In this document: positions 6,110-30,759 of the stretch, one piece after another
Position numbering within the stretch: the stretch's first letter is position 1
How the letters are laid out: each line of letters opens with the position of its first letter
Assembly: GCF_003315795.1 (NCBI RefSeq)
Contig: NZ_QMEY01000024.1
Coordinates: 62,001 to 126,000, forward strand
Source of the DNA: Spongiactinospora rosea
GTDB lineage: Bacteria; Actinomycetota; Actinomycetes; Streptosporangiales; Streptosporangiaceae
Direction of reading: 5' to 3'
Length of the DNA: 64,000 bases
The notes under the pieces: model-generated
Seen by the model: the letters and a program-made list of their open reading frames with translations, nothing else
Database searches by the model: none
What the model was told of the DNA's origin: nothing
Made by a program: the position numbers and the translations under genes

Positions 6110-6177
6110 ACGATCATCGCCGAGCGGCTGTGAGGGTCTGACGACGCAGACGGCGCGCTCCTTCCGGGCAGCCCGCG

Positions 6178-6228: not shown

Positions 6229-6323
6229 GATCCTCCCAAGTGCGGGCGGTTCATCGGCGGCCGGCGCAGTGGACCGGCCCGGCCGCAGTCAGGCGGATCG
6301 GGAGGAAAGGTGCAACCCTGCCC

Positions 6324-7568
6324 TCAGGTCAGGCGGATCGGCAGGTGGTCCACGCCCCGGGTGCCGATGGCGGTGCCCACGGCCTGGGTCCACACGGGCT
6401 CCCCGGCGGCGCTCAACTGCGGGAAACGGCGGTGCATCATGGTGAGCAGGATGTTCATCTCCGTCCGTACCAGCGCCGCGCCGTTGCAGTAGTACATTCC
6501 GTACCCCATGCTCAACGTGGCGTTGTGGTTGCGCCCGGGATCGAAGCGGTCGGGGTCGGAGAACACCTCCGGGTCACGGTTGGCGGCGGCGAGCACCATC
6601 CGCACTGGGGCCCCCTTGGGCAGGGTGTGCCCGTCGAACTCGATGTCGGTGGTGGCCACTCGCGGGATCGGGGTGAACAGCACCACGCCGTCGTGCCGCA
6701 GCGCCTCCTCGACGAACGCGGCGGCCTCGTCATAGCTGCCACGTAGCCAGTAGAGCTGGTCAGGGTGGTCAAGCATCGCCTGGAGGCCGCGGTCGATGCC
6801 GGCCGCGGTGCTGTCATAGCCGGTCATCCACATGACCCAGAGCAGACCCAGCATCAGGCGGTCGTCCCCGGGCCTGGCGGTCCCGTCGTGGGCCGTGACG
6901 AGCGTGCTCAGCAGGTCGTCGCCCGGCGCGCGCCTGCGCTGCTCGATCTCCTCGCGGAAGTACGCCTCCACGCGCTCGGCGGCGGCATCCGCGGAGTTCA
7001 GGGTGTCCTCGTCGCGGGCCTCCAGAGCGGCCATCACCTCGACCACGTCGCTGGACAGCCGGTCGCGGACGTCCTCCGGCACGCTGAACAGGTCAGCGAA
7101 CACCTCGATGGTCAAGGGGCGTGAGACCGTCTCGTGGAAGTCGACGACCTCACCGTCGCGCAGCCGCTCTGTGATCGCGTCCAGGAGGCGCTCGCACTTG
7201 GCGCTGATGTCGGCCTGCAGACCCTCCACGTTCTTGACCGACAGGTCACGGCTCATCAGCTTGCGCAGGCCGGTGTAGGCGCTCTCGTGCTTGCTCGCGA
7301 ATGCGTCCAGTTGAATGGCGACGGCCCGGTGCCGGTCGGCCTGCGGGAACTGGTGCCGCAGATCCTCCCTGCCGGGCACGGTCAGCGCGTTGCCGGTGTT
7401 CTGCAGCGCCCACTGCACGTTCCCGTGCCGGCTCAGCAGGTAGAAACCGGCCGTGGTCAGATGCACCGGCTCGTTCTCGCGCAGCCAGTGCAGGAACGGA
7501 TAGGGATTGGCGCGCTCCTCAGGAGCCGCCAGTCGTTGCAGTACGTCGACGGAAATGGTCGGGCTCAT
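6324..7568 (-). CDS. Cytochrome P450 (last gene of the indolocarbazole operon)
   Basis: A 414-residue bacterial P450. The haem-binding loop is SMGYGMYYCNGAALV, with the proximal Cys about residue 361. The I-helix has TGYDSTAAG in place of the common A-G-x-D/E-T-T, and the K-helix ExxR is in EEALRHDG. ATG 7568 is chosen because GGAGG precedes it by five bases; a GTG at 7583 would place the RBS inside the gene. It is the most distal gene of the staO-D-C-P operon, 67 bases after the methyltransferase. StaN, the sugar C-N-bond P450, is one family precedent, but no sugar genes are visible. A tailoring oxidation of the aglycone is the safer call. Confidence 0.85.
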   Translation of the reverse strand: MSPTISVDVLQRLAAPEERANPYPFLHWLRENEPVHLTTAGFYLLSRHGNVQWALQNTGNALTVPGREDLRHQFPQADRHRAVAIQLDAFASKHESAYTGLRKLMSRDLSVKNVEGLQADISAKCERLLDAITERLRDGEVVDFHETVSRPLTIEVFADLFSVPEDVRDRLSSDVVEVMAALEARDEDTLNSADAAAERVEAYFREEIEQRRRAPGDDLLSTLVTAHDGTARPGDDRLMLGLLWVMWMTGYDSTAAGIDRGLQAMLDHPDQLYWLRGSYDEAAAFVEEALRHDGVVLFTPIPRVATTDIEFDGHTLPKGAPVRMVLAAANRDPEVFSDPDRFDPGRNHNATLSMGYGMYYCNGAALVRTEMNILLTMMHRRFPQLSAAGEPVWTQAVGTAIGTRGVDHLPIRLT

Positions 7569-7635
7569 CGATCCTCCGCTCACAAGCAGGAATGGGTTGC
7601 GGCGCCACCGGCGGCTCCGGTCGCGCGCGGGGTCG

Positions 7636-8388
7636 TCAGACGCGCTCGGCCGAGACCTGCCAGATGGGCAGGAGCAGGCGGCCCTGGTCGTCGGCGGGCA
7701 GCCCTTCGACGAACGACGCGCCGTCGGCCACGTTCATCGCTTCCACGATCCGGTGGAGCAGGTCGCGGGTGAAGTCGGGACTGGCGGTGTAGGTGGCGCG
7801 GTCAAAGCGCGTGATCGACCAGCCGGCGTCGGTCAGGGTGCGCCTGATGTCCTGCTCCGAGCACCGGTTGGGCGCCAGGATCTCCCTGGGGACCTCGTCG
7901 GAGAAGCAGGCGATGTGCAGTCGCGCGCCCGGAGCGGTCACCCCGTGCAAGGCGGCGGCGTACTTACGGCGCTGCTCGGGGTCCAGGCCGTGATAGAGCG
8001 CACTGTCGATCACTGTGTCATAGGCCCTGCCCTCCAGGCTTCGCAGCGTGACGGCGTCCGTCACCACGAACGTGATCTCCAGCCCGAGGGAGCGCGCCCG
8101 CTCGCCGGCCCGTTCTATCGCCTTGGGGGAGACGTCCAAGGCGGTGACCCGGTGCCCACGCCCGGCCAGGAACAGGGTGTTGTCGCCGAGCCCGCAACCG
8201 ACGTCGAGCACCTCCCCGCGGAAGGCGCCCTCCGCTTCCAGGGCGACGACCACAGGTTGCGGGCCGCCGATGTCCCACGGCACCACGTCGCGGTAGATCG
8301 CGTGCAGCGGGGAGTCCTCGGCGTAGATGGAGTCACCGCGATAGTTGGCGTCGAAGTGGAACTCCGACAGGGTCATCGGATCAGGCAT
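7636..8388 (-). CDS. Class I SAM-dependent methyltransferase
   Basis: A 250-residue Rossmann methyltransferase with motif I VLDVGCGLGDNTLFLA, the acidic end of strand beta2 in VTALDVS, and VVTDAVTL for motif II. The N-terminal FHFDANYRGDSI resembles TPMT/TehB-like small-molecule methyltransferases rather than the sugar methyltransferase RebM. ATG 8388 overlaps the staP stop by eight bases, so it is coupled to the indolocarbazole core. It probably O- or N-methylates the aglycone. The position of methylation is not predictable. Confidence 0.82.
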   Translation of the reverse strand: MPDPMTLSEFHFDANYRGDSIYAEDSPLHAIYRDVVPWDIGGPQPVVVALEAEGAFRGEVLDVGCGLGDNTLFLAGRGHRVTALDVSPKAIERAGERARSLGLEITFVVTDAVTLRSLEGRAYDTVIDSALYHGLDPEQRRKYAAALHGVTAPGARLHIACFSDEVPREILAPNRCSEQDIRRTLTDAGWSITRFDRATYTASPDFTRDLLHRIVEAMNVADGASFVEGLPADDQGRLLLPIWQVSAERV

Positions 8389-9601
8389 ATGGTCGCTCCT
8401 TCGTTGTCGGGTGCGAGATCGTCGTCACCAGCGGGAATCGGGTCGGTCCATGAAAGATCAGGTCGTCGTCGAAGACGGGCGGCTCCGACGGCAAGGTCAT
8501 GCCGGGAAAGGCGGCGAAGAGAGCGGCCAGTCCGATCTCGGCCTCCGCGCGCGCCAGGCTGGCGCCCAGGCAGTAGTGGATGCCCAGGCCGAACCCCGTA
8601 TGGCGGGCCGGCGGCCGGTCCAGGCGCAGAAGGTCCGGCGCGGGGAAGCGGGCAGGGTCGCGGTTGGCCGCACCGAGGACCGGCACGACCTTCTCCCCGG
8701 CCCTGATGCGCTTGCCCCCGAGCAGCTGGTCCTGCCGGGCCCACCGGCTGACCATCTGCACCGGCGAGTCGAAGCGGACCAGTTCTTCCACCGCGGTGGG
8801 GAGCAAGGCGGGATCGGAGCGCAGGCGCCGCAGGACCCCTGGCCTGCGCAGCAGGGCCAGCGTTCCCTTGGTGAGCAGATGGGTCGTGGTCTCGTGGCCG
8901 GCGGTCAGCAGGTGCACGCAGGTGCCGACGATCTCGTCCTCGCTCAGCGCCGTGCCTTTCCGGGCGGCAGCGACCAGGAGCGAGAGCAGGTCCTCGCGGG
9001 GTGCCCGAGCGCGCAGCCGAGCCTGCTCGGAGAAGTACGCCGCCAGCTCGCGGGCCGCGCGTTCGGCCAGGTCCGCCCCGGTCCTGCCGGTACGGCCGGC
9101 GCGGGACGTACTCGCCCCCTGCAACCACACGGCACGCTCCCTGAACCAGTCGCGGCGCTCGGATGGGACGCCCAGCAACTCGGAGATGACCAGGAGGGGG
9201 AAGGGCGCGGCGAAGTCCCGGACGAGGTCGATCAGCGGCTTCTCCTGCAGCGGGGCGAGCAGCTCTGCGGCGATGGCGGTGACGCAGGGGCGCAGCGCCC
9301 GCACGACCTTGGGTGAGAACGTGGCCTGTAACAGGTCACGAAGCTCGGTGTGCCGCGGCGGATCCATGAAGACCAGCCAGTTCTGGACGAGCCGGCGCAG
9401 CGCCGGGCTACGGTCGCTGACCGGTCCGCCGGGTCCCCGCCCGAAGGCGGGGCTGGTGAGGACCTCGTACGCCTCGTCGTAGCCGAAGACGTACCAGGTG
9501 CCGCCCTCGCCTCGCTGCACCGAATCCTGCTCCCTGTACCGCCGGTAGACGGGGTAGGGGTCGGCCAGGTGCTCTTGCGGCCAGCCGGTGGGAGCGAACA
9601 T
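8381..9601 (-). CDS. staP: StaP/RebP-type cytochrome P450, aryl-aryl coupling of chromopyrrolic acid
   Basis: A 406-residue P450 close to StaP/RebP (CYP245). Shared stretches recalled from StaP include NWLVFMDPPRHTELRDLL (StaP NWLVFLDPPHHTELRSLL), GTCVHLLTAGHETTT (I-helix), GFGLGIHYCLGASLARAEAE (haem loop, Cys about residue 344) and DDLIFHGPTR near the C-terminus (StaP DDMVFHGPTR). StaP forms the C-C bond between the two indoles of chromopyrrolic acid, working with StaC. ATG 9601 overlaps the staC stop; a longer open frame upstream runs antisense-like and is not credible. Similarity was judged by eye from memory, but the family call is strong. Confidence 0.92.
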   Translation of the reverse strand: MFAPTGWPQEHLADPYPVYRRYREQDSVQRGEGGTWYVFGYDEAYEVLTSPAFGRGPGGPVSDRSPALRRLVQNWLVFMDPPRHTELRDLLQATFSPKVVRALRPCVTAIAAELLAPLQEKPLIDLVRDFAAPFPLLVISELLGVPSERRDWFRERAVWLQGASTSRAGRTGRTGADLAERAARELAAYFSEQARLRARAPREDLLSLLVAAARKGTALSEDEIVGTCVHLLTAGHETTTHLLTKGTLALLRRPGVLRRLRSDPALLPTAVEELVRFDSPVQMVSRWARQDQLLGGKRIRAGEKVVPVLGAANRDPARFPAPDLLRLDRPPARHTGFGLGIHYCLGASLARAEAEIGLAALFAAFPGMTLPSEPPVFDDDLIFHGPTRFPLVTTISHPTTKERPYA

Positions 9602-11235
9602 CAGGCGGCTCCCCGCACGGCGTCGACGAGTTCGAGCGGGTCGTCCGGCGGCCGGTGTCCTCGCCAGGCGACGTGGTCGTCGGGCCGTACCAGGACGTAG
9701 GGGTGGCCGTACAGGGCGGCGATCTTCTCGTCCCGGCACACCAGTACCGACAGGGGGACGCCTCGGTCGCGGAACGCGCGCTCCAACCCGTACGGCGCCG
9801 CCTCGGGGTGGAAGCACAGCAGGGTGAAACCGCGGCCGAACACGTCGAGAGTGGATGTGCCGGGGCGGAGCCAGGCGTGTGCGGCGCGGTAGCCGGGGTC
9901 GCTGCCCGGCCGCCACCCGGGCGTGAGCTCTACCCGTTCACCAAGGACGAGCGGGGAGGAGTACCGGTAGCCGAAGTGGATCTCAGGGGCGTCGAACTCC
10001 CGGCGCGCACCCCCGTTGCGCAACCGATCGGCCATCCGTGCGCGGGCCTGCTTCCCCGCTGCCGTGTCGGCGTGCAGGTCGGCGGGCAGGACCTGGCCGG
10101 TCGTCCTGGTCAGGTTGGCGTTGGCGGCCTCCAGGTTGCGTACCGCGACGGGCCGCCGCTCCAGATCGTAGCTGTCGAGCATCGCCGGACCCGCCCAGCC
10201 CGACAGCAGGGCGGCGAGCTTCCACCCGAGGTCCGCGGCATCAGCGATCCCGGTGTTCATCCCGAACCCGCCGGAGGGCGAGAGGGTGTGGGCGGCGTCG
10301 CCGGCGAGCAGCACACGCCCGTGCCGGTAGCGATCGGCGATCCGCTGGGTCAGGTGCCAGGCCCCGTCGGACAGCACCTCGACCGGGACGTCGACGGCGA
10401 TGGTTTCCCGTACCAGAGCACCCGCGTCGTGCGACGCTGTGGCACCGCTCACCACCAGGTTGTACAGGCCGGCGCCGTCCAGTGACCGCATGGGGAAGCG
10501 CAGGCTCGCCGACCGGAGCAGGAAGTAGACCATGGCGGTGCGCAGGCCCATCGCGGTGAGCTTCCCCGCCAGGTCGGGCGCCTTGAAGAGGACGTTCCTG
10601 AACTCCTGCGTCTCGTACCGGTAGGGCGCTTCGATGCCGCAGGCACGCCGGACCTGGGAGGAGGCGCCGTCGCAGGCCACGAGGTATCGCGCGCGGACGG
10701 TGAGCGGCAGGCCGGAGGTCAGATCGGTGACGTGCGCGGTGACAGCGTTATCGTCCTGGGTGAAGGAGTCCAGTCGGTGAAGGAGGCGCACATCGCAGCC
10801 GTCCCTGCCGGTCAGCTCCTCCAGCAGGAGCGGGTTCAACCAGTGGGCGGGGCAAACCTGGTCCGGCTCGGGGGTGTGCAGGAACTCCGGGCGGTCGGCG
10901 GCCGTGCCGCGTTCGTAGCGGTAGATCTCGTGCCCGCCGACCTGGGTCACCCAGGCGATGTCCAGCGGATGGTCCGGTGGCCAGCCCGCCTGTCTGATCC
11001 GCTGTGCGACTCCCCAGCGACGGAACAGCTCCATCGACCGGGCCCCGATCGTGCTCACCTTCGGGTGGCGCACCCGGCCGTCGCCGCTGTCCACAACCGT
11101 GCACGGCACGTTCCGGTACGTCAGGTCCAGTGCCAGCGCCATCCCGACCGGGCCGGCTCCGATGATCAGCACGTCGGTCTCATGGTCGGAACCGGTCATC
11201 TCGCTCCTCATCCGTTCGTTCCTCGGGCTGCTCAC
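9601..11235 (-). CDS. staC: StaC/RebC-type FAD monooxygenase with StaC diagnostic residues
   Basis: A 544-residue aromatic-hydroxylase-fold flavoprotein. FAD motifs are DVLIIGAGPVGMALALDL and GRVLLAGDAAHTLSPSGGFG, and the C-terminus has a thioredoxin-like lobe as in RebC. In indolocarbazole pathways the StaC type gives K252c, while RebC gives the imide arcyriaflavin. Aligned to RebC as I recall it, the Phe216 position is Val236 here and the Arg239 position is Asn259; Val and Asn are the StaC-like states. RebC Arg230 is conserved as Arg250. GTG 11235 overlaps the staD stop and has GGGAGGAG five bases before it; ATG 11199 with GAGGAG is a good alternative start. Confidence 0.92.
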   Translation of the reverse strand: MSSPRNERMRSEMTGSDHETDVLIIGAGPVGMALALDLTYRNVPCTVVDSGDGRVRHPKVSTIGARSMELFRRWGVAQRIRQAGWPPDHPLDIAWVTQVGGHEIYRYERGTAADRPEFLHTPEPDQVCPAHWLNPLLLEELTGRDGCDVRLLHRLDSFTQDDNAVTAHVTDLTSGLPLTVRARYLVACDGASSQVRRACGIEAPYRYETQEFRNVLFKAPDLAGKLTAMGLRTAMVYFLLRSASLRFPMRSLDGAGLYNLVVSGATASHDAGALVRETIAVDVPVEVLSDGAWHLTQRIADRYRHGRVLLAGDAAHTLSPSGGFGMNTGIADAADLGWKLAALLSGWAGPAMLDSYDLERRPVAVRNLEAANANLTRTTGQVLPADLHADTAAGKQARARMADRLRNGGARREFDAPEIHFGYRYSSPLVLGERVELTPGWRPGSDPGYRAAHAWLRPGTSTLDVFGRGFTLLCFHPEAAPYGLERAFRDRGVPLSVLVCRDEKIAALYGHPYVLVRPDDHVAWRGHRPPDDPLELVDAVRGAA

Positions 11236-14105
11236 GCCCGCTCCTCCCGGAAGTACGCGCTGAGAAAGGCGCTCTGCTCCGCCACCCGGCGGGGTACGAG
11301 CGAGCAGGCCGCCGCCCGCGTGGCCAGCCGCTGGAACCGGGCGGCGAGCGTGCGCGCTGCGACGCCGGGCTGCGCCAGGTAACCCGGCAGGAGGTCCAGC
11401 TCGAAAGTCGGGCCGGCGGTGCGCCCCGCCCTGCCCGCAGGCAACGTGACGAGCAGCTCGGCCAGTGGCCGCATCATCGCGGTCATCACATCGATGGCGT
11501 GATTCATCAGCGGTGAACGACGCAGGCTCCCTCCCGGCCTGCCGTAGAAGTGCTGCACCATGAGCTGAAGCATCAGGAAGTACGCATCGTTGAACAGCAT
11601 CGCGACCTCGCGCGCGACCGGATCGGTGATCGCGTCCTTGGCGTGGTCGCCCGGGTCCAGGCTGGGATTGCGCAGCACCGGGTACGACGGCCGCCAGCTC
11701 AGGTCCGCGGCGAGCAGGCTCGACAACCGCAGGAACGCGGCGTGGTGCGACTCCTCGCCCGGGTCCTCGGCGGTGAGCACGCCGCCCTCACCCTGCTCGG
11801 TGATCACGTCGATCGCGAACAGGGCACTGGGCAGGTCGTCGACCTCCATTTGGTAATCGGGGTGCTCACGGTCGATGGAACGGCGCAGAAACAGGTGGTG
11901 CTCGCCGCCACCGCTCTCCCCGGCGGCCACGAAGAGATCGGGGAGCCGGGTCAGCCCGTCGCGGATGTCGGCGTACAGCTCGCTCAGCGAGCCGTATCCG
12001 GGCCGTGCGGCCGCGCCGGTCAGGTTGCCGAGCCGTACCTCGCCGGAGGCCCCGGCCGGCTCCTCGATGCGGGCGAACCGCTCGGCGCTGCCGACGCTCA
12101 GGCCCTCCAGGCAGAAGTCGAGCGGAACCGGTAGTTCGGCGTTGATCGTGCCGAAGTCGATCCGCGGCACGTGGAACGGCTCGCCCACGGCGGTCAGGAT
12201 GTTGTTGACCATCAGGAAATGGACCATCTCCTCTCGGGCGATGCCGAGGAGCGTCCCGCGAACTCCGCCGTCCGCCGTCTTTCCACCGTCCCCGCAGGCC
12301 ATCGCCAGCTGAGCGGAGGTCCACTCGCCGCGTCGGACGAGCTCCACGCCGGTGCCGTAGGTGGGTACCGAGTACGCGGCGTACAGGTACTGGAGCATGA
12401 CCGCGAGCTCGACGGCGGCTCCGCAGCGCAGCGCCCGGACGAGTGCGTCGCGGGTCGCCAGGACCGGCCTGCCGTCGTGCCCGCCGGGGGTGACCACGAG
12501 CACGTCGCGCGGTGTCTGCTGCCGTCGCAGGTACTTCAGCAGCAGCCGTGCCTTCGGCGCGGTGAGATCACGCGAGGGCGGCATGTAGTACGTGCGGTCC
12601 TTGTTGCGCGGGTCGCACATCTGCCAGATCAGCATGGCGTAGGTCTCCACCTTGAACCGGTCGGCGAGGCTGAACACCTCCTCCCGCATGAACGGATACA
12701 ACTCCTCATACGGTGCGAAGACCTCGCGGTGGATCAGGGAGAAGTCCACCTTCTCCAGGGGGATGCCGTCCAGCCGCCAGTCGTCGGGCAGCACCCGCAC
12801 CGTCATCGCGCCCGGGAAGTGCCGCTCGTCGTCGTGCCCCTGTGGCGCGGCCTCCCCGTCGGCGCAGAGCGACAGCCGGGCCGTACCCGCACGCAGTCCT
12901 CTGAGAGTGAACGTGCCAAGGCCGGACGCGTCGGTGCTCAGGACACAGGAGGGCTCACCGTCCAGGGCCACCACTGGATGCCGTCCCTGCGTCGCCCGCG
13001 GGTTCGCACACTGCCGGACCTCCACCCGCGAGACGGCTGCGGGCACGCCCCGCACGAAGGAGCGGACGGTCACCTCGACGTCGTGGTCGGCGTCCTCCGG
13101 TCCCCTAGGGTGTTCCAGGATCACGCAGGCGTCGTCCACCTGGACGTTCACCACCTCTTCCGCCAGTACCACGGCTCCTGACGCGTCCACGACCTCCAGC
13201 GGTTCCGCATCGGCACGCTCGGGCGGCCCGGTCAGGGCGGCGGACACGATCCCGGTCACGCCGGCAGGCAGGTGGGCCACCGTCGAACCGGAGTGCGCGG
13301 TGCGCAGGGAGAGCCCGTGCGGCAGTAGCTCGACCAGGTTCACCAGCAGGTCCGCCGGGGTGATCTGCAGCGTCAGGTTGACCGGCGGGCGGCAGGTGTC
13401 CTTGGCGCGTCTGGAGGTGAGCAGCCTGCCCGCCGGGTAGGTCCGTAGCTCGTGAGAGTGCCAGGGCGCGATCACGCCGTCGAGGTCGAAAGGGACGCCC
13501 GGTGGCTCGCCGCGCGGTGCGGGGCGGGTGCGGTGGTTCAGGACGAACTGCACGACCAGGCCACTTGCCCGTTCCGCGGCGAGAAGCGTGCGCAAGGCGG
13601 TGACGGCCGGGCTGCGGTCGGCTTCGGGCAGCCAGGTCAGCCCGCCGGCCTGGTCCACCACGAACTGGTGCAGCACCTGGCCCGGCCGGTGCCACCGGGG
13701 TGGCTGGAACCCTTCGACCTGTCCGGTGAGCATGTACCCCGTGTCGGATGACCGTCCGGAACGTCCGAACCCGAACTGTCCCACCATCACGATCGTGGAC
13801 CAGCGGGACGCCGGATCCACATCGAAGATCCGCGCTCGGTTGGCCGTGGTGCCGAGGTACTCGTTGTAGTGCCCCCAAAAATCCACCGCGCGTCCCACGA
13901 CCGGATCTGGCGAGGCGGCCGGCGGGTCCACCGAGGTGATCACCGCGTCGATCAGGAAGTGGCCGTTACCGGCGAAGTTGTCTCCTTTGCGGAGCGTGTG
14001 CACCCGGCCGGTCGCCAGATCGACGTCACTTGCCGCAGGGCCACTGGGCAGCCTGCTCAGCGCGGTGCCGGCGAACCGCAGCCGGGGCAGGTCGAAGACG
14101 CTCAC
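11232..14105 (-). CDS. staD: Chromopyrrolate synthase (StaD/RebD/VioB family)
   Basis: A 957-residue haem enzyme of the VioB/RebD/StaD family, which oxidatively dimerises indole-3-pyruvate imine to chromopyrrolic acid. The start VFDLPRLRFAGTA is characteristic of the family. The ferritin-like segment near residues 560-650 contains AAVELAVMLQYLYAAY and GIAREEMVHFLMVNNIL. Length matches RebD/VioB (about 1000). GTG 14105 overlaps the staO stop (GTGA). It acts directly on the StaO product; no domain is missing. Confidence 0.93.
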   Translation of the reverse strand: MSVFDLPRLRFAGTALSRLPSGPAASDVDLATGRVHTLRKGDNFAGNGHFLIDAVITSVDPPAASPDPVVGRAVDFWGHYNEYLGTTANRARIFDVDPASRWSTIVMVGQFGFGRSGRSSDTGYMLTGQVEGFQPPRWHRPGQVLHQFVVDQAGGLTWLPEADRSPAVTALRTLLAAERASGLVVQFVLNHRTRPAPRGEPPGVPFDLDGVIAPWHSHELRTYPAGRLLTSRRAKDTCRPPVNLTLQITPADLLVNLVELLPHGLSLRTAHSGSTVAHLPAGVTGIVSAALTGPPERADAEPLEVVDASGAVVLAEEVVNVQVDDACVILEHPRGPEDADHDVEVTVRSFVRGVPAAVSRVEVRQCANPRATQGRHPVVALDGEPSCVLSTDASGLGTFTLRGLRAGTARLSLCADGEAAPQGHDDERHFPGAMTVRVLPDDWRLDGIPLEKVDFSLIHREVFAPYEELYPFMREEVFSLADRFKVETYAMLIWQMCDPRNKDRTYYMPPSRDLTAPKARLLLKYLRRQQTPRDVLVVTPGGHDGRPVLATRDALVRALRCGAAVELAVMLQYLYAAYSVPTYGTGVELVRRGEWTSAQLAMACGDGGKTADGGVRGTLLGIAREEMVHFLMVNNILTAVGEPFHVPRIDFGTINAELPVPLDFCLEGLSVGSAERFARIEEPAGASGEVRLGNLTGAAARPGYGSLSELYADIRDGLTRLPDLFVAAGESGGGEHHLFLRRSIDREHPDYQMEVDDLPSALFAIDVITEQGEGGVLTAEDPGEESHHAAFLRLSSLLAADLSWRPSYPVLRNPSLDPGDHAKDAITDPVAREVAMLFNDAYFLMLQLMVQHFYGRPGGSLRRSPLMNHAIDVMTAMMRPLAELLVTLPAGRAGRTAGPTFELDLLPGYLAQPGVAARTLAARFQRLATRAAACSLVPRRVAEQSAFLSAYFREERA

Positions 14106-15616
14106 GCCGACCTGCTCACCGGGCGCCGGTCATACCGGTGCAGGCTGATGCCCTGGACCGCCTCCAGCGCCGACTCGACCGCGCTCTCGATCCAGGCGGG
14201 AGTGGTCGCGCAGTGCTCACCGGCGAAGAAGAGATGCTTGTCCGGGCGCGCGGCCAGTTCCCGTTCCGCCTCGGCCGCGGATGCGGTCTTGCCCCAGCGG
14301 ACGGTGCAGCCGCCGTGGGTCAGGCCGTCCTGCCCCCACGCCATGCTGGCCGCCGCCCGAACCATGCCCGGCTCGTCCAGGGCCGGGTGGATCGCGGCGA
14401 GCTGCCGGCGGACGTGCTCGTGCCTGCGCTCGGCCGTCATCCGGCCGAGCCGGTCGGCCTCCTCCCCGATCGTGTAGCTGGCCAGCAGCACCGATCCGTG
14501 GTCGGGGTAGTAGGTCTGCCGGATGTCGCCGCCGGTGAAGGAGGCTCCGCCGGTGATGCCCTCGCGCTCCCAGAACCGTTCCCGGCAGTGGAAGGCGACC
14601 TTCGTGGCGGAGCAGTAGACGGTGGTGCGGATCGCTTCGGCCTTGTCCTGCGACAGCCCGTCCATGCGGACGTGGCGCAGGGCGGAGAACGGGATCGCGC
14701 AGACCGCGTAGTCCACCCGGCGGACGATCGTGCGGCCCGCACAGGAGAGTTCGAGGATCACATCGCGTTCCCGCACCCGCAGCCCGGTCAGTGTGTGTCC
14801 AAGGTGTACGGCAGAGCCCAAAGCGAGGGCCAGCCGTTCGGGCAGGGCGCTTATGCCGTGCTCCAGCCGGAGCAACGCGGGACTGATCTCGGTGAGGACG
14901 TCGTCGAGGAATCCGTCCAGCTCCAGTGGCAGAACCTTGCGGCACCGGGGATGGTCGGTGAAGAAGGCCTCCAGATCGGCCGGGCGGTCCGCGCCGCGCA
15001 CGTACGGCCCCAGGTTCATGCCGTCGAGCTGGCCGAGCAGCCTGCCGAGCACGATCTTGTTGTCGAGCTGGTCGCGCAGCCGCTGGGGTGAGAGCGCCCG
15101 CACCGCCGCGATCAGCCACGCGGCGAACAGCAGGCTCTCCTCCCGGTAGCCGGGCTCACCGAGCCTCGCCCGTAACTCGCCGACCAGCGCGGGTGCGGCC
15201 TCGGAGACCTGCACAGGGCCCGGCTCCATGGCAAGGAAGGCCCTCCCGTCCGACAGCCATGAGCGAAAGGGGCGTAAGCGATCCGACAGCCCCAACTCGT
15301 CGATGTAAGAGAGCGTTCGCACATGGTGCGCCGGCAACCGCATGGCACCCAGCTCGGCGAAGGAGCCGGTCGGGTCGGCGTCGAACCGGTGTGTGTGCAC
15401 GCGCCCGCCGATCCGGCTTCCTGCTTCGTAAAGCTCGACCTGGTACCCGAGTTTGCCGAGCTCGTACGCCGCGACCAGGCCGGCCATACCACCCCCGAGC
15501 ACGGCGACCGACGGCCCTGGGACCTCGGCGCGCGTGAGGCCCGTCGCTCTCGGAACGGTCCCCTGTGGTTGTGCGGGCAATCTGGACAACCTCCAACCTC
15601 CAACCTCCGTGGTCAA
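14102..15616 (-). CDS. staO: L-tryptophan oxidase (StaO/RebO, flavin amine oxidase)
   Basis: A flavin amine oxidase with N-terminal dinucleotide-binding motif VAVLGGGMAGLVAAYELG, the amine-oxidase motif IGGRVHTHRF, and a C-terminal HLFFAGEHCATTPAWIESAV segment. It resembles RebO/StaO/VioA, which oxidise L-Trp to its imine to feed StaD. Its position as first gene before staD fits exactly. The start is uncertain: 15616 is a TTG without a clear RBS, while TTG 15580 follows GGAGG by nine bases and gives about 492 residues. It heads the minus-strand operon, so its promoter should lie in 15617-15990. Confidence 0.9.
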   Translation of the reverse strand: MTTEVGGWRLSRLPAQPQGTVPRATGLTRAEVPGPSVAVLGGGMAGLVAAYELGKLGYQVELYEAGSRIGGRVHTHRFDADPTGSFAELGAMRLPAHHVRTLSYIDELGLSDRLRPFRSWLSDGRAFLAMEPGPVQVSEAAPALVGELRARLGEPGYREESLLFAAWLIAAVRALSPQRLRDQLDNKIVLGRLLGQLDGMNLGPYVRGADRPADLEAFFTDHPRCRKVLPLELDGFLDDVLTEISPALLRLEHGISALPERLALALGSAVHLGHTLTGLRVRERDVILELSCAGRTIVRRVDYAVCAIPFSALRHVRMDGLSQDKAEAIRTTVYCSATKVAFHCRERFWEREGITGGASFTGGDIRQTYYPDHGSVLLASYTIGEEADRLGRMTAERRHEHVRRQLAAIHPALDEPGMVRAAASMAWGQDGLTHGGCTVRWGKTASAAEAERELAARPDKHLFFAGEHCATTPAWIESAVESALEAVQGISLHRYDRRPVSRSA

Positions 15617-15990
15617 TGTGAGAAGGACCGGCGATGTTTTCCCCCGTCCGCTGACGCGGAGGCATCACCTGACGAGGGGCACTTCCCAGCAGTAGCTGCC
15701 AGGACGTGTCCGCCTCTTGCGGCAGGATGTACGAACGTGCCGAAACCGCCGGGTGCCTGCCGGCACCGCGTCCAGACGCGCGGGGGTCTGGCCCGGCGCC
15801 CTCCCCGGTCTCCGCCGTCCGGCCGCCCGTGCGGACCGGCGCCGGGGTGCTCAAGGCGCCGTCCTGTCCAGGCGAGGCGTCGCCGGAGCGCAGAATCCCC
15901 GCGGGCGTGACCGCGACCGCCGCGACCGGCGCACCCTCCGGGCCGACCGATCACCTCGCGCGTGCCGGCCCTCCGATGGTCACCGAATTG
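15617..15990. other. Intergenic region upstream of staO
   Basis: About 370 bases with no credible gene on either strand; the open frames are Arg/Pro-rich shadows. It must carry the promoter of the indolocarbazole operon. Short CCAACCT repeats lie at the staO 5' end (15586-15606). I see no regulator gene (LuxR/LAL type) of the kind that accompanies staurosporine and rebeccamycin loci. Confidence 0.5.
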
Positions 15991-16296
15991 TCAAGTGGTC
16001 GTTCGATAGAAGGAATTCACCGGGCTATTCAAGCGGTGCTGGTACCGGATGGTCGCATTGTTGTCGCCGGACTGGACGTGGTAAATGCCGTGGGCGGCCA
16101 TACCTACTGTGCCCGCGTTCGCCCGGCAGTGCTGGTCGCCGTTGCCGTTGCCGATATATAGGAAGTCGCCGCCATCCTTGGGGCAGGCAACGCCGTTGAT
16201 GGCGAACGCGGGGGAGGCCGGACTGACGAGTACGCCCAGGAGGAGCGCCGCGGCGACCGCTCCTGAGGTGAGGATCTTGCGAAAGGTCGCCCTCAT
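15991..16296 (-). CDS. Small secreted protein, beta/gamma-crystallin-like
   Basis: A 101-residue precursor. Residues 1-31 form a Sec signal peptide (basic MRATFRK start, hydrophobic AAALLLGVLV core, ASPAFA cleavage region). The mature part has two cysteines and the pattern NGVACPKDGGDFLYI, then HCRANAGTVGM, then HGIYHVQSGDN, which resembles actinomycete beta/gamma-crystallin-like and killer-toxin-like small secreted proteins. The usual C-terminal strand looks short. ATG 16296 is followed by a typical signal sequence. It reads in the same direction as the staO operon but is probably independent. The family call is tentative. Confidence 0.65.
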   Translation of the reverse strand: MRATFRKILTSGAVAAALLLGVLVSPASPAFAINGVACPKDGGDFLYIGNGNGDQHCRANAGTVGMAAHGIYHVQSGDNNATIRYQHRLNSPVNSFYRTTT

Positions 16297-16623
16297 GACC
16301 GCCCTTCTGTCGGAGGGGTGAACCTTGCGCCTTTACTTTCGCCGGAGAAGCTGTCCAATTGACAGGCCATTGGCTGCCCATTTGGTGCTCACCACGGTCA
16401 CCACCGCGGCGGAGGGAAAGGCGTCCTGAGAGGCATTCCTGGCTATGGCCGGCAACTCGGCCGTGTCCCTGGCCTTTTCGCCACCGGCCCTTGGACGTGA
16501 CTGTCTGCGGACTCGGCCGAAGCGCTCAGCCTGGACAGTACGGGAGACCGGGCGCCACGCGCCCTGGCCTTCGGGGGATGCGAGTTGGCCTTGAGGCGTG
16601 CCCACCAACCGTGTCCACACAAA
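16297..16623. other. Intergenic region, nothing recognised
   Basis: About 330 bases between the end of the nrfD-like gene and the small secreted protein. A 95-codon minus-strand frame here has no family resemblance and no convincing RBS. The promoter of the secreted protein gene should lie just to the right of 16296. Confidence 0.4.
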
Positions 16624-17562
16624 TCACCGGCCGTGCGCTCGGTTCCGCTCCCGGGCGTCGATTCGTTCGCGCTGCGGGACGACCGTGTACTTGGGGTCGG
16701 CGGCCGACGCGCGGCCCGCCCGCAGTACGCCGAAGCGGACGCACAGCGACCCCGCCGTCAGCGCCGCGGCCGAAAGGACGGACGGCGTCCGCCATCTGGT
16801 GAGGCCGGAGACCGCCGCGAGCGCGCCTCCGGTCACGGTCAGCACCCGCGCCGCGCGCATCAGCCGCCCGGCCGACCCCTCGCGGTACGGCTCGGCGAGG
16901 AGGCCGAGCCGCCGTTCGAGCACCTCGCCCGCCACGGTCTCCATCGCCGCGCCCACCATCGCCATCCGCCGGGCCGGACCGGCCTCCCGGTGCGGGGCGG
17001 CGACCATGGCGACCGCCCCGGCGCTGGCCAGCGCGCTGCCCGCGAACAGGAACGGCAGCTCCCGGTGACCGGTGTGCCAGGACGGCACGGCGGTGTCGGC
17101 CACCAGCACCGCCGTGTAGGTCGCCATCATCGGCCCGGTGATCCCCGTGGCCAGCCCGGCGGCCTTGCCGATGGAGGGCAGCAGGCCGGTGAGGGCGGAG
17201 CCCGCGGCGACGGCGGCGAGGCCGCTCTGCGCGGCGAGGATCCACGAGCCGACGCTCATCGGCGAGGTCGTCTTGAAGACCCGCAGCATGTTCAGGAAGC
17301 GCTCCGGGCGGCCCAGCTCGGCCACCAGGAACGCCGCGCCCGCCGTTCCCGCGGCCGCGGCGGCGATCTTGGCGGGGGCGGCCAGGCGGTCCCGGCCGGT
17401 CAGCTCGCACCCGGCGGCCAGCAGCGAGGACGCCCCCGACAGGCCGCCGAGGTACAGGTAGGCGGGCATGTGCGGCTCGTGCCAGAGCGGGCCCTTGATG
17501 ATCGGCTGCCCGTAGTAGGAGCGGAACTCGGGCTCGGGCACCATCGCCCGCTCGCGGCTCAT
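16624..17562 (-). CDS. NrfD-like membrane subunit of formate dehydrogenase
   Basis: About 312 residues with eight or so hydrophobic segments (for example PAYLYLGGLSGASSLLAAG, AAAAAGTAGAAFLVAELG, LPFLFAGSALASAGAVAMV), typical of NrfD/PsrC-type quinone-reactive anchors. Residues GRPERFLNMLRVFKTTSPMS and ITGPMMATYTAVL match conserved NrfD stretches. It probably passes electrons from the FdhB iron-sulfur protein to the menaquinone pool. ATG 17562 overlaps the fdhB stop (ATGA), so a longer upstream frame is rejected. It is the last gene of the fdh operon. Basic residues dominate the C-terminal tail. Confidence 0.82.
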   Translation of the reverse strand: MSRERAMVPEPEFRSYYGQPIIKGPLWHEPHMPAYLYLGGLSGASSLLAAGCELTGRDRLAAPAKIAAAAAGTAGAAFLVAELGRPERFLNMLRVFKTTSPMSVGSWILAAQSGLAAVAAGSALTGLLPSIGKAAGLATGITGPMMATYTAVLVADTAVPSWHTGHRELPFLFAGSALASAGAVAMVAAPHREAGPARRMAMVGAAMETVAGEVLERRLGLLAEPYREGSAGRLMRAARVLTVTGGALAAVSGLTRWRTPSVLSAAALTAGSLCVRFGVLRAGRASAADPKYTVVPQRERIDARERNRAHGR

Positions 17563-18323
17563 CGGCGCGCCCCGCGGGCGAACACGCCGACGCACACGGC
17601 GGCCATGGACACCGCCGCCGCCCCGGCCCACAGCCACATCGACGGCAGGTCACGGGTCGTCACCACGGGGTCGGGCGGCAGGCCGTACACCTCGGGTTCG
17701 TCCAGGAGCAGGAAGAACGCGCCGTCGCCGCCCACGCCGTCATCGGGACGCTCGCCGTACAGCCTGGCCTCGGCGACTCCGGCCTCGTGCAGCGTGGACA
17801 GCCGCTCCGCGGCGCGTTCGCGCAGCTCGTCCAGCGGGCCGAACTGGATCGAGTCGGTCGGGCACGCCTTGGCGCAGGCCGGTTCCAGGCCGTCGCGCAG
17901 CCGGTCGTAGCACAGCGTGCACTTCCACGCCCGCCCGTCGTCCTCGCGGCGGTCGATCACCCCGTAGGGGCAGGCCGGGACGCAGTAGCCGCACCCGTTG
18001 CAGACGTCGGCCTGCACCACGACGGTGTCGAACTCCGTGCGGAACAGCGCGCCGGTCGGGCAGACGTCCAGGCAGGCCGCGTGCGTGCAGTGCTTGCACA
18101 CGTCGGAGGACATCAGCCAGCGGTCGCCGCGCTCGGTGAAGTCCTCGATGAAGGCCACGTGCCGCCAGGTGCTCGCGCCCAGCCCGCCGGTGTTGTCATA
18201 AGACGTGGCCCGGAACACGAACCCGTCGTCGGGCACGTTGTTCCACTCCTTGCAGGCGACCTCGCACGCCTTGCACCCGATGCACACGCTGGTGTCGGTG
18301 AAGAACCCCATCCGCTCACTCAC
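17559..18323 (-). CDS. Formate dehydrogenase iron-sulfur subunit (FdhB/FdoH type)
   Basis: A 254-residue electron-transfer subunit with four ferredoxin-type cysteine clusters: CIGCKACEVAC, CKHCTHAACLDVCPTG, CNGCGYCVPACPYG, and CTLC followed by CAKACPTDSI. Together these bind four [4Fe-4S] clusters, as in E. coli FdnH/FdoH. The C-terminus has one hydrophobic helix (MWLWAGAAAVSMAAVCVGVF), which should anchor it beside the NrfD-like subunit. GTG 18323 overlaps the end of fdhA by eight bases. It carries electrons from FdhA to the membrane subunit. Confidence 0.93.
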   Translation of the reverse strand: MSERMGFFTDTSVCIGCKACEVACKEWNNVPDDGFVFRATSYDNTGGLGASTWRHVAFIEDFTERGDRWLMSSDVCKHCTHAACLDVCPTGALFRTEFDTVVVQADVCNGCGYCVPACPYGVIDRREDDGRAWKCTLCYDRLRDGLEPACAKACPTDSIQFGPLDELRERAAERLSTLHEAGVAEARLYGERPDDGVGGDGAFFLLLDEPEVYGLPPDPVVTTRDLPSMWLWAGAAAVSMAAVCVGVFARGARR

Positions 18324-21300
18324 GCCGGTACTCCTCGATCAGGGCCCGCAGCGCCGCCCCGCGCGGCCGCCGCCCGGGCAGCACGTCGCAGGTGGCCGCC
18401 TTGCTCTCCTGGATGTAGACGTTGGGGTCCAGTACGACGCCCAGCAGGTCGTTGGCCGCGTCGCCGGTGACCAGGCCGCCGCCCGCCCAGCCCCAGTGGT
18501 AGGGCACGCCGATCTGGTGGACCGTCCGCCCGGCCACCCGCAGCGGCCGGACCCGCTCGCTGACCAGCACCCTGGCCTCGATCGCGGCCCGGCTGGTGAT
18601 GATCGTCGCCCAGCCGCCGTTGCCCAGCCCCAGCTCGGCGGCGAGCTGCGGGGACACCTCGCAGAACATCTCCGGCTGCAACTCCGCCAGGTGCGCCAGG
18701 GAACGGCTCATGCCGCCCGCCGTGTGGTGCTCGGTCAGCCGGTACGTGGTCAGCACGTACGGGAACCTGGTCCCGTTGGCCGGGTTGTCGGCGCGCCGGT
18801 AGATCTTCCTGGCGGGGTTGGCGCGCGTGCCGTACAGGGTGTTGGGCACCGGAGACTCGTCCGGCTCGTAGTGCGTGGGCAGCGGCCCGTCGGCGAGCCC
18901 GGCGGGGGCGAACAGCCAGCCCTTGCCGTCGGTCTGCATGATGAACGGCGAGTCGCCCGCGATCGCGGCCTGCGCGGTCGCGCCCGGCGGCGGCACGTAG
19001 TCCGGCGGCTTGTCCTTCTCGAAGTCCGGTACGTCGGGGCCGGTCCACTCGCGCCGCTCCGGATCCCAGACGATGTAGGACTTCCGCTCGCTCCACGGAC
19101 GCCCCTGCGGGTCGGCCGAGGCGCGGTTGTACAGGATGCGGCGGTTCAGCGGCCAGGCCCACCCCCACTCCGGGGCGACCAGCGACTGCTCCCGGCCGGG
19201 CTTGCGCCTGGCCGCCTGGTTGACCTCGTCGGCGAACACGCCGCAGTAGATCCAGCAGCCGCAGCGGGTGGACCCGTCGGCGGCCAGTTCGAGATAGGAC
19301 GACAGCGCCCGCCCGTCCGGACCGGTCCCGTTGATCTCGCGCAGCACGGCCTCGGCCGAGGGCTCGGCGTGCTCGCCCTCCTCCGGGTAGTCCCAGGTGA
19401 GGTCGCGCAGCGGCGCGTCCATCTCGGTGTCGCCGGCCCGCTCCCGCAGGAGTTTGCCCAGGTGATAGTAGAACCACAGGTCGCTGCGGCAGTCGCCGGG
19501 CGGATCGACCGCCTTCTCCCGCCACTGCAGCAGCCGCTGGGTCTGGGTGAACGTGCCCTCCTTCTCCACATGCGAGGCCGCGGGGAGGAAGAAGACCTCG
19601 GTGCCGATGTCGGCGGTGCGCAGCTCGCCCGTCTCGATCTCCGGCCCGTCCTTCCAGAACGTGGCCGTCTCGATCGGGACGAGGTCCCTGACCACCAGCC
19701 AGTCCAGGTTCGCCAGGCCGAGCCGCTGCGCCCGCCCGCCCGCCGAGCCCACGACCGGGTTCTCGCCGATCACGAAGTAGCCCTTGACCGTGCCGTCGAT
19801 CTGCCCGAACACCGTGGCGTAGGTGCCGTGGTCGCCGGTGATCCGCGGCATGTAGTCGAAGCGGAAGTCGTTGTCGGCGGTGGCCGAGTCGCCCCACCAC
19901 GCCTTGAGCAGGCTGACCATGTAGGAGCGCTTGTTGCCCCAGAAGCCGGTGTCGCCCGCGGCGTAGCCGAGGTAGTCCTCCAGGGTCTCGTGCAGCTCGG
20001 CGTGCGGCATCGGCATGTAGCCGGGCAGGATGTTGAACAGCGTCGGGATGTCCGTCGAGCCCTGGATGCTGGCGTGGCCGCGCAGGGCCAGGATGCCGCC
20101 GCCGGGGCGGCCGATGTTGCCCAGCAGGAGCTGCAGGATCGAGGCCGCGCGGATGTACTGCGCGCCGACCGTGTGCTGGGTCCAGCCGACCGAGTAGACC
20201 CACGCCGTGGTGCGGTCTCTGCCGCTGTTGGCGACGATCGCGTCGGCGAGCCGCTGGAAGTCGGCGCGCGGGATGCCGCACAGCTCCTCGACCAGCTTGG
20301 GCGTGTAGCGCGCGAAGTGGTGGGCGAGCAGCTGGTACACGCACCTGCGGTGGGTCAGGGTGGGGTCGGTGTGCGGCGTCGGGTGCGCCGACGGCCCGCC
20401 GGAGCCGTACTGGTCGGCGCTGGCCGCTCCGGCGTGGACCCGCCCGCCCCTGGCGTGCTCCTCGCGCTCCCTGGGGGCGTCCTCGCCCTCATAGGACCAG
20501 CTCGCCGGGTCGTAGGAGGCGTTGTCCGCCTGGAAGCCGGAGAACAGGCCGTCGAGGTCTTCGGTGTCGCGGAAGTCCTCCGAGATGATGGTGGCGGCGT
20601 TGGTGTAGGCCAGGACGTACTCGCGGAAGTCGTGCGCGCCCTTCAGCACATGGTTGATCAGCGCGCCGAGCAGCACGATGTCGCTGCCCGCCCGGATGGG
20701 CAGGTGCGCGTCGGCCATCGCGCTGGTGCGCGTGAAGCGCGGGTCGATGTGGAACACCTTGGCCCCGCGCGCCTTGGCCTCCATGACCCACTGGAACCCC
20801 ACCGGATGGCACTCGGCCATGTTGGAGCCCTGGATCACGATGCAGTCACTGTTGACCAGGTCCTGCTGGAAGGTCGTGGCGCCGCCGCGCCCGAAGCTGG
20901 CCCCCAGACCGGGGACGGTGGAGGAGTGTCAAATGCGCGCCTGATTCTCCACCTGTATCGCGCCGAGCGCGGTGTACAGCTTCTTCATCAGGTAGTTCTC
21001 TTCGTTGTCGAGCGTCGCCCCGCCCAGGCTCGCCAGCCCCATGGTGCGCCGCACGACCTTGCCGTCGGCGGTCTCCTGCCAGGTGTCCCGCCTGGTGGCC
21101 ATCACCCGATCGGCGATCATGTCCATCGCGGTGGCGAGGTCCAGGCTCTCCCACTCCGTGCCGTACGGCCTGCGGTACATGACCGTGGTCTGCCGCCCCG
21201 GGTGCGTGACGAGCTGCTTGCTCGCCGCCCCCTTCGGGCACAGCCGGCCGCGTGAGATCGGGGAGTCGGGGTCGCCCTCGATCTGGGTGACCTTCCCGTC

Positions 21301-21489
21301 CTTGGCGTACACGAGCTGGCCGCAGCCCACCGCGCAGTAGGGGCACACCGAGCGCGCGACCGAGTCGGCCTCGGCCGTGCGCGGGCGCAGCGCGTCGGTG
21401 CGCGCCGAACGGGCCGCCGAACCGCGCCCGTCCTCGCCGCGAAGCTGCCGGATGACCGGCCAGCGGCCGATCAGACCGCGAAGGTCCAT
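18316..21489 (-). CDS. fdhA: Selenocysteine-containing formate dehydrogenase alpha subunit (UGA read-through)
   Basis: A molybdopterin/[4Fe-4S] formate dehydrogenase of 1057 residues if the in-frame TGA at 20929-20931 is read as Sec187. The N-terminal part has the CPYCAVGC cluster motif and GRLCPKG. Just before the TGA is ENQARI and just after it HSSTVPGLGASFGRGGAT, matching the FdnG context N-Q-A-R-(I/V)-U-H-x-x-T-V-x-x-L-x-x-x-F-G-R-G. The next start-like Met in frame is about 90 bases downstream, inside a conserved segment, so two separate genes are unlikely. The C-terminal molybdopterin dinucleotide-binding domain is complete. FdhA oxidises formate to CO2. Conventional calling would split it at the TGA. 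Confidence 0.93.
20902..20914 (-). promoter_or_regulatory. SECIS-like hairpin downstream of the Sec UGA
   Basis: On the mRNA strand, CCCC-GGUCU-GGGG forms a perfect 4-bp stem closing a GGUCU loop, starting 14 bases after the UGA; further pairing may extend the base of the stem. In E. coli fdhF the SECIS loop is also GGUCU and starts 18 bases after the UGA, the same distance as here. This supports SelB-dependent insertion. The hairpin lies inside the coding sequence. Confidence 0.85.
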
Positions 21490-27754: not shown

Positions 27755-29392
27755 TCAGGTGTCGGCTGTGGTGTCGCCCCCTGCGGCCTTCAGCCGCCGT
27801 GGCCGCGCCGTACGCCCCTGCCGTTCCAACCGGCCTGTGCGGGCGGCGGGGATCGGTGGCGGGGCTGGGGTGGTGATGAGGGCGGCGGTCTGCTCGGCCG
27901 CCGCGGCTGCTACCTCGGGGTAGACGCTGGTGTAGGTGTCGCGGGTGAAGGTCGAGGAGACGTGGCCGAGGGTTTCTTGGACGATCTTCAGTTCGACTCC
28001 GGCGGCGAGCATCATGGAGGCGGCTCCGTGGCGCAGGTCGTGAAGGCGGATCGGTGGTAGTCCCGCCTCATAGGCGAGCCAATAGAACTGGTCGGTGAGG
28101 TGCTGGGGATGCAGCGGTCGTCCGAGTTCGTCGGTGAACACAAACCCGCTGCCAGCCCAGTCCTGGCCTGCGGCGAGGTGTTCTTTCGCCTGCTGGGCGT
28201 GGTGGTGGCGGAGGGCGGCCATGGTCTGGGCGTCTACGGCGATGACGCGGTCGCTGGCGTCGGTTTTCGGTTTGCCCTGGATGGGTTGCCAGCCGAGTTG
28301 GGTGATCTGCCAGTTGATCCCGATCGTCTTGGCCGACTCGTTCACCTCACGCCAGCGCAGCCCGGCGGCTTCTCCTCGGCGGAGCCCGCGTAGCGCGATC
28401 AGCCGGTACAGGGCGTACAGCCGGTGAAGCCGGGCGTGGGTGAGGAAGACCGCGGTCTGCTGCGGGGTCCAGACCATCACGGGGGAGGGCCGATCCCCAG
28501 CGAGGTAGACGCCGATCACATCGACGCCGCCCATCGGCCGCTGCTGCTTGGCGGTGGCCAGTCGCCGGGTGTGGTCGGTTTGCCAGCAGGCGACGCGTTC
28601 GGCGGTCCACACGGCGGGTTTGGGGCGGGTGATGGCAGGGAGTTCGACTACGGCGGCGGGGTTGAAGTCGAGCAGGCGGTCTTGTTTGATCGCGATGTTG
28701 AGGGCGTGGCGCAGGGTGGCGCGGATGCGGTGCATGGAGGAGGCGCCGACGGGGCGGCGGTATCGCACTTCCACGATCTGTTCGGGGTCGCCGCTGGCGC
28801 GGGCTTGGGTGATGGTGTCGTTGAACTCCTCGATGGCGTCGAACATGCCCGCGATGTCGGAGACGCGGAGCCGGTCCAGGCGGATGTGGCCGAGGTAAGG
28901 GGTGAGGTAGAGGCGGATGTCGGTGGCGTAGCCGCGGCGGGTGGTGGCATCGATACGGCGTTTGCGGGCGAGGAATTCCTCCAGCCATTCGGCGACGGTG
29001 AGGTGCCGGTTGAGGTCTTGCCGGGTGCGGACCTTCCGGCGTATCTCTTCCATCGGCGGCAGGTGCCGGGTGTCCTTGAGGGTGGTGAGGATGAGTTCGG
29101 TGATCTGCCGCCGCACGTGCGGGTCATCGTCAAGGGCGAGCAGTCCGCGGGCGTGGTCGAGTTCGGCTTCGGCGTCCTCCAGCGTAGAAAAGCCGCTGCG
29201 GCGTAGCGGGTTGCGGCGTCGCCCGTCGGCGTGGGCGGGGAGTTCGAGTTGATAGGCCCAGCGTCCGTGGGTACTGCTCCATCGTTCCCCACCGCCGCCT
29301 GTTCGGCGCAGCTTGGGGCAGGTTTTGCCGAGCCTACGGCCGGTCGTCTCGTCGCGGCAGGAGCAGCTTTTGTAGGTGGATCCGTTGGCCAC
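27755..29392 (-). CDS. Tyrosine recombinase / integrase
   Basis: A 545-residue phage-type integrase. Catalytic residues: Arg in ALRGLRRGEAAGLRW, His-x-x-Arg in HDLRHGAASMML, the second His in LGHVSSTFTRDTYTSVY, and Tyr in the same segment. The N-terminal part has a short zinc-finger-like CSC...CPKLRR region and a SAM-like core-binding domain (TVAEWLEEFLARKR). GTG 29392 is chosen because it follows the excisionase stop by seven bases; the open frame extends further upstream but would overlap xis. It should insert and excise the element at the tRNA-Lys core to its left. Confidence 0.93.
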   Translation of the reverse strand: MANGSTYKSCSCRDETTGRRLGKTCPKLRRTGGGGERWSSTHGRWAYQLELPAHADGRRRNPLRRSGFSTLEDAEAELDHARGLLALDDDPHVRRQITELILTTLKDTRHLPPMEEIRRKVRTRQDLNRHLTVAEWLEEFLARKRRIDATTRRGYATDIRLYLTPYLGHIRLDRLRVSDIAGMFDAIEEFNDTITQARASGDPEQIVEVRYRRPVGASSMHRIRATLRHALNIAIKQDRLLDFNPAAVVELPAITRPKPAVWTAERVACWQTDHTRRLATAKQQRPMGGVDVIGVYLAGDRPSPVMVWTPQQTAVFLTHARLHRLYALYRLIALRGLRRGEAAGLRWREVNESAKTIGINWQITQLGWQPIQGKPKTDASDRVIAVDAQTMAALRHHHAQQAKEHLAAGQDWAGSGFVFTDELGRPLHPQHLTDQFYWLAYEAGLPPIRLHDLRHGAASMMLAAGVELKIVQETLGHVSSTFTRDTYTSVYPEVAAAAAEQTAALITTPAPPPIPAARTGRLERQGRTARPRRLKAAGGDTTADT

Positions 29393-29399
29393 CGTGGTG

Positions 29400-29681
29400 T
29401 CATCCTTTCCAGTGTTCGCGGCACTCGTGGGTGTCGCGATATCCCAGCAGCGCACGCACCCCGCGTACCGGCACCGCGTACCGGCTGCCGATCCGTAGGA
29501 CCGGGCAGGGGAATCGCCCGGTCTTGGCCAGCCGGTATGCCTTGGTCCGGCCCATTCCGAGTAGTTTCCCGGCGGCGACCACGCCGATCACGGCGGGATA
29601 CTCTGCCTCCGCCATGTGATGCCGCTCCTCGGAGTCGAGGGCGGGTTCATCCCGCTCGCTGCTGGTTGGTCGTGCGGTCAT
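29400..29681 (-). CDS. Excisionase / MerR-like helix-turn-helix protein
   Basis: A 93-residue protein with an AlpA/Xis-type winged helix in the middle: VVAAGKLLGMGRTKAYRLAKTGRFPCPVLRIG, interrupted here only for length, ending in RYAVPVRGVRALLG. ATG 29681 follows GGAGGTGA; the longer frame upstream lacks support. It precedes the integrase with a seven-base gap, the standard xis-int order of actinomycete elements. It should bind the att region and bias recombination toward excision. Confidence 0.88.
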   Translation of the reverse strand: MTARPTSSERDEPALDSEERHHMAEAEYPAVIGVVAAGKLLGMGRTKAYRLAKTGRFPCPVLRIGSRYAVPVRGVRALLGYRDTHECREHWKG

Positions 29682-29802: not shown

Positions 29803-30759
29803 TCAAGCGAAATCCGCTGGTCCATCGGCTGATGTCGCTGTTTCCGGTGCTGAGCGGTGTAGTGCCGGATGGCCGGGGACGGTGCCCGGGTGCCTGGCCG
29901 GAGGGCGGCCGTCTGGTGGCTTGCGGAAGACGAGGAGATCTTCGTGTGCGATGGCATGGATCGGCCGCCCGTGCGTCCATCCCCGGCGCGCTTCGTGGAG
30001 CTGGAAGAACGACGCGCGGTTCAGCAGCGTGCCGTCGCCGAGGCCGCACAGCAGGCAGACGATCCGGTCGGCGAACTCCAGTCCCGCCCGGCGGCCGAGG
30101 GTGATGATCTGGCCGGGGAGGTCGATGAGTTCGCCGCGGTTGCGGTAGGGGCGGGCGGTGACCGCGACCACGCCGCCGGGCCGCAGCATCCGGATACTGC
30201 CCGCGAGAATGCGGGAGAAGCCGTCCAGCAGCCCCGGGAGCCGCCGGTACGCCAGGTTGGCCCGGTCGGCACGGTCGGTGTAGTGGTGATTCCATTTGCG
30301 GACCCCGGGCTGTCCGGTGTCGCGGGTGGAGCGGACGTGACCATGGGTGGCCAGCCCGTAGGGGGGAGAGGTCAGCACCAGGCCCGCCTTGCCGTGCAGG
30401 TCGGGTAGCAGCTGCGCGATGCGTCGGGCGTCTCCGGTGACGACCCGGCCGAACCCGGCCGCTCCAGCTCGGCGTGCGTGGGCGAGGTTGGCGACGGCGA
30501 GGTCGGCCCAGCGCGCTTCCAACTCGACTCCGGCGGCGTGCCGGTCTTGGTGGACGGCCTCGACCAGTGTGGTGCCGATGCCGCACATCGGGTCGATGAC
30601 GAGATCACCGGGGCGGGTGTAGGTGGCGATGACCTGGGCGGCGATCGCGGGGAGCATCTTGGCGGGGTGCTTCATCGAGGCGGGCAGATAGCGCCCGCGC
30701 CGCTGGATGCGGGAGGGCTGTTGCCCGGTCGCCCAGACCGACGTGGTCATCTCGATCAC
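29803..30759 (-). CDS. DNA adenine/cytosine-N4 methyltransferase
   Basis: A 318-residue amino-methyltransferase. Motif I is LVIDPMCGIGTTLVEA (SAM binding) and motif IV is LTSPPYGLATHG (catalytic SPPY), in the order I then IV. No obvious target-recognition domain separates them beyond about 60 residues. No restriction enzyme lies beside it, so it is probably a solitary methyltransferase that protects the element during transfer. GTG 30759 follows GGAGGTGA and overlaps the preceding gene. The C-terminal 60 residues are Pro/Arg-rich. Confidence 0.87.
   Translation of the reverse strand: MIEMTTSVWATGQQPSRIQRRGRYLPASMKHPAKMLPAIAAQVIATYTRPGDLVIDPMCGIGTTLVEAVHQDRHAAGVELEARWADLAVANLAHARRAGAAGFGRVVTGDARRIAQLLPDLHGKAGLVLTSPPYGLATHGHVRSTRDTGQPGVRKWNHHYTDRADRANLAYRRLPGLLDGFSRILAGSIRMLRPGGVVAVTARPYRNRGELIDLPGQIITLGRRAGLEFADRIVCLLCGLGDGTLLNRASFFQLHEARRGWTHGRPIHAIAHEDLLVFRKPPDGRPPARHPGTVPGHPALHRSAPETATSADGPADFA

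Follow-up and report, generated by a model that had tools for sequence, protein, structure and literature searches.

A formate dehydrogenase gene of Spongiactinospora rosea with an internal UGA codon predicted to encode selenocysteine

The window analysed here, a stretch of 64,000 nt from one contig of Spongiactinospora rosea, carries on its minus strand a long formate dehydrogenase (FDH) gene with a TGA triplet inside its reading frame. The locus thus raises the question of whether this codon is decoded as selenocysteine (Sec), is a nonsense mutation or sequencing error, or is read in some other way. A formate dehydrogenase whose internal UGA is decoded as Sec appears to be the best explanation of the locus as a whole, with a probability of roughly 0.97 on the sequence evidence given below.

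The fdhA gene and its interrupted frame

18316..21489, minus strand: fdhA, formate dehydrogenase alpha subunit, 1057 aa, with a predicted Sec at residue 187 (translated with TGA as U)
20929..20931, minus strand: UGA codon 187, predicted to be read as Sec (same codon in two other Spongiactinospora genomes)

The gene starts with an ATG at position 21489 and its stop TGA ends at 18316, the sequence-only reading of this DNA having delimited both the gene and its frame correctly. Codon 187, located in the context NQARI-U-HSSTVPGLG, is the sole in-frame TGA ahead of the terminal stop and is followed by a His codon (ARI-U-HS). The frame does remain open behind it, for 870 sense codons, the 871 counted by that reading including the stop. 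The length of the open frame was nevertheless rejected as support for recoding, since antisense frames are equally long: a frame of 1016 aa lies opposite fdhA on the plus strand (18205-21255), and in such GC-rich DNA an open frame alone is weak evidence.

The case is carried instead by homology and by the covariation described in the next section. The product scores 1915 bits against the NCBI model NF041513 (formate_DH_Act, cut-off 1400), nearly the full length being covered, and 905 bits against TIGR01553, and it possesses the Fe4S4, molybdopterin and molydop-binding Pfam domains, which form the set expected of the family, over its full length. Its top matches among solved structures are Sec-containing FDH alpha subunits, with the TGA aligning with their Sec site (ARI-x-HS.TVP), so the placement of the codon at the Sec position, originally proposed from the ARI-U-H motif, is borne out.

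All three Spongiactinospora genomes examined have TGA at this site, the protein identity of the S. rosea product to the other two copies being 97% and 87%, which confirms, as far as sequence allows, that the codon is TGA and not TGC. In the comparison with Spongiactinospora gelatinilytica 7K107 (locus L046) the dN/dS values are 0.127 before the UGA and 0.121 after it, and in comparisons with four more distant relatives they amount to 0.20-0.29 and 0.27-0.35, respectively. Purifying selection thus acts on the frame past the UGA as it does on the part ahead of it.

These data bear on the possibility that the gene codes for a cysteine (Cys) enzyme that has acquired a nonsense mutation, or in which TGC was misread as TGA during sequencing. 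The two codons are only one base apart, and a stray in-frame TGA does exist in a relative, namely at locus L126 (G099:C2:25000-31000), which has Cys (TGC) at the Sec site and, at codon 868 within the stretch that matched, a separate TGA in place of the Trp of the protein from the window (ADGKG-stop-LFAP versus TDGKGWLFAP). That TGA may have arisen by mutation or reflect an error in sequencing. Genome G099 has a single TGA in this gene but lacks a clear tRNA-Sec; it was considered as a conflicting case and dismissed, its Sec site being TGC and its TGA lying elsewhere. Against such an origin of codon 187, the same codon is TGA in the three Spongiactinospora genomes and in 57 further named relatives, selection acts on the frame past it, and all UGA and UAG copies of the gene keep a hairpin which the Cys copies lose, leaving this explanation a vanishingly small chance.

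The hairpin downstream of the codon

20900..20916, minus strand: bacterial SECIS hairpin, nt 16-32 (U of UGA counted as 1), six pairs, loop GGUCU (covariation and fold)

The stem of this hairpin consists of the pairs G16-C32, U17.G31, C18-G30, C19-G29, C20-G28 and C21-G27, and the GGUCU loop occupies nt 22-26. In the E. coli fdhF sequence, which was folded as well, GGUCU also starts at nt 22 by the same count. The fdhF-like spacing of the loop suggested earlier therefore stands, while the proposed CCCC-GGUCU-GGGG hairpin was too short, the real stem having six pairs.

The six-pair hairpin is the minimum free energy structure of the isolated 20-24 nt (-10.8 kcal/mol); the 42-nt fold favours a different structure with z = +0.5, and 59 nt give z = +0.21. 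Folding energy was rejected as SECIS evidence because it is uninformative at these lengths, and covariation was therefore used. Rfam at gathering scores gave no match within the window, the SECIS element being unrecognised there.

All six pairs are formed in 65 of 65 distinct relatives with UGA or UAG, and the whole hairpin is kept in none of the 16 distinct Cys relatives, GGTCT being present in one of 17 Cys loci. Nucleotides 18 and 30, both of which are silent third-codon positions, covary through the combinations C-G, U-A, U-G, G-C and G-U; they pair in 65 sequences against a shuffle mean of 36.2, a value of 65 being reached in 0 of 20,000 shuffles, which ignore kinship and so treat related sequences as if they were independent. 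Since copies with UGA or UAG retain the hairpin and those with Cys do not, the constraint tracks recoding and not the protein sequence alone. This covariation is the best evidence for the predicted Sec recoding of fdhA.

Selenocysteine machinery, operon partners and gene neighbourhood

Each of the genes selA, selB, selC (tRNA-Sec) and selD is found in the genome above its curated cut-off. A single tRNA-Sec exceeds the Rfam cut-off (67.5 bits, anticodon tca, i.e. UCA) and is located on contig 19, directly followed by selB (266 bits, cut-off 242), selD is on contig 23 (383 bits), and selA (59732-60985, 417 bits) is on contig 17, which is also the contig of fdhA, the window starting at its position 62001. 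The distance from selA to fdhA is about 19 kb and to fdhC about 18 kb. A common origin of the three contigs is assumed, the genome's listed completeness being 100% and its listed contamination 7%, and it is favoured because selA shares its contig with fdhA. The absence of selB or tRNA-Sec, named in the sequence-only reading as grounds for giving up the Sec assignment, did not occur.

The complete set also bears on a reading in which no Sec is inserted, the UGA being decoded near-cognately or else as Trp or Cys. DNA alone leaves some room for such an event; against it stand the full sel set with a UCA tRNA-Sec, the preservation of the hairpin through compensatory silent changes, which would be expected if SelB uses it but not if reading is near-cognate, and the selenium-dependent removal of formate in Actinomycetospora chiangmaiensis (PMC7176365). 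Decoding without Sec is accordingly considered extremely unlikely, and Sec insertion remains the preferred reading.

Two further genes accompany fdhA, and the order fdhA-fdhB-fdhC is seen in most named relatives:

17559..18323, minus strand: fdhB, iron-sulfur subunit, overlapping the end of fdhA (Fer4_11; TIGR01582 at 187 bits, below the cut-off of 334.7)
16624..17637, minus strand: fdhC, NrfD-type membrane subunit (PF03916 NrfD, 43.6 bits)

The codon, the hairpin with its covariation, the full sel set, the gene order and the purifying selection before and after the UGA can be read from the DNA, and the way in which they would work together is modelled on known families. In the fdhA mRNA, the UGA at codon 187 would be followed by the six-pair hairpin with its GGUCU loop, and SelB, bound to this hairpin and to Sec-tRNA(Sec) with the anticodon UCA, would deliver Sec at the UGA. 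SelA would make Sec from seryl-tRNA(Sec) using selenophosphate supplied by SelD. In the resulting molybdopterin-dependent enzyme, Sec187 would ligate the active-site metal, and electrons from formate oxidation would pass to FdhB, then to the NrfD-type FdhC and probably to the quinone pool.

Directly after fdhC, the region 6105-16630 of the window contains VioA- and VioB-family genes, an FAD monooxygenase gene, two P450 genes and a methyltransferase gene, and this set of about 10.5 kb looks like an indolocarbazole-type gene set. At L046 of S. gelatinilytica, the end of fdhC is at about L046:6875 and the sequence matching window position 6105 begins at L046:6890; the flanks are nearly joined, and therefore about 10.5 kb was either inserted in the window or lost in S. 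gelatinilytica. At loci L047, L055 and L114, about 1.3-2.2 kb separates fdhC from the selA that comes after it, compared with about 18 kb here. Co-transcription of the indolocarbazole-type set with the formate dehydrogenase operon, which would tie a selenoprotein operon to secondary metabolism, is very unlikely, the data here amounting to a difference in gene order from the sister species. Elsewhere in the window, a phage-type integrase gene (27755-29455, minus strand) adjoins a gene with a DNA-methylase domain (29803-30759, minus strand), and this pair may mark a mobile element.

Relation to known enzymes and distribution of the UGA, UAG and Cys versions

E. coli FdnG (1kqf) and Desulfovibrio FdhAB (9qm0, 6sdr) belong to the same family by sequence, with the Sec site aligned and two matched blocks over the length. 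Assignment to the membrane-bound FDH of the FdnGHI kind was rejected: no Tat-like twin-arginine was seen by eye at the N terminus of the fdhA product, unlike in the FdnGHI alpha subunit, and the third gene, fdhC, codes for an NrfD-type protein (PF03916), whereas FdnI is a cytochrome b. The subunit arrangement therefore differs from that of FdnGHI.

Another counterpart is FDH1 of A. chiangmaiensis DSM 45062, for which the cluster and selA, selB and selD have been studied, the proteins detected and formate removal found to be selenium-dependent (PMC7176365). It resembles the S. rosea system in having a Sec alpha subunit, FdhB, FdhC, selA and selB, but selA and selB lie inside the FDH1 cluster there, whereas in S. 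rosea selA is remote from fdhC and selB, like the tRNA-Sec gene, is on another contig. No feature setting fdhA apart from the NF041513 family was found; the nearest relatives among its members share the UGA and the hairpin, and other members have UAG or Cys.

Among the 80 nearest named loci, which are the closest matches and hence biased towards Sec, 58 have TGA, 22 have TAG and none has Cys at the Sec site. TAG at this codon together with the same hairpin is present at L065, L068, L071, L077, L079-L083, L086, L087, L089, L090 and L094, and further at L097-L099, L102, L107, L109, L113 and L119. These copies belong mostly to Blastococcus, Modestobacter, Geodermatophilus and Klenkia (Geodermatophilaceae), L113 coming from a MAG labelled Frankiales. 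UAG-encoded Sec has already been described for Geodermatophilaceae, together with formate dehydrogenases and a tRNA-Sec with the anticodon CUA (PMC5330540, citing its reference 56). The enzyme is homologous to the one studied here and, at the 22 loci, has the same hairpin, but it combines UAG with the anticodon CUA instead of UGA with UCA.

In the order as sampled, the FDH family is above cut-off in 244 of 347 genomes and tRNA-Sec in 236 of 347. Among 30 relatives whose loci come from this order, all 13 with UGA have a clear tRNA-Sec (E < 1e-12), compared with 3 of the 17 that carry Cys (one-sided Fisher p about 5e-6, computed by hand). A literature search for selenoproteins and Streptosporangium found nothing. 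The bacterial selenoproteins with the widest distribution are formate dehydrogenase alpha and SelD (PMC5029168). The idea that selenoproteins are uncommon in filamentous actinomycetes, put forward by the sequence-only reading, does not agree with these tRNA-Sec counts, with UGA or UAG in all 80 nearest named relatives, or with the existence of the dedicated model NF041513. Selenoprotein genes are often cut short or overlooked by automated tools (2026 review, PMC13188914); the expected splitting of this gene in two by automatic annotation is still not a given, as NF041513 is a full-length model of the actinobacterial enzyme.

The fdhA gene of S. rosea is thus real and ordinary, a selenoprotein gene correctly spotted from the raw sequence by a reader and belonging to a family already known across actinobacteria, and with it a widespread actinobacterial enzyme gains one more member. 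The UGA, UAG and Cys variants themselves have been described before; as versions of one gene in which the hairpin is kept or lost to match, they make a clean natural data set on the gain and loss of Sec.
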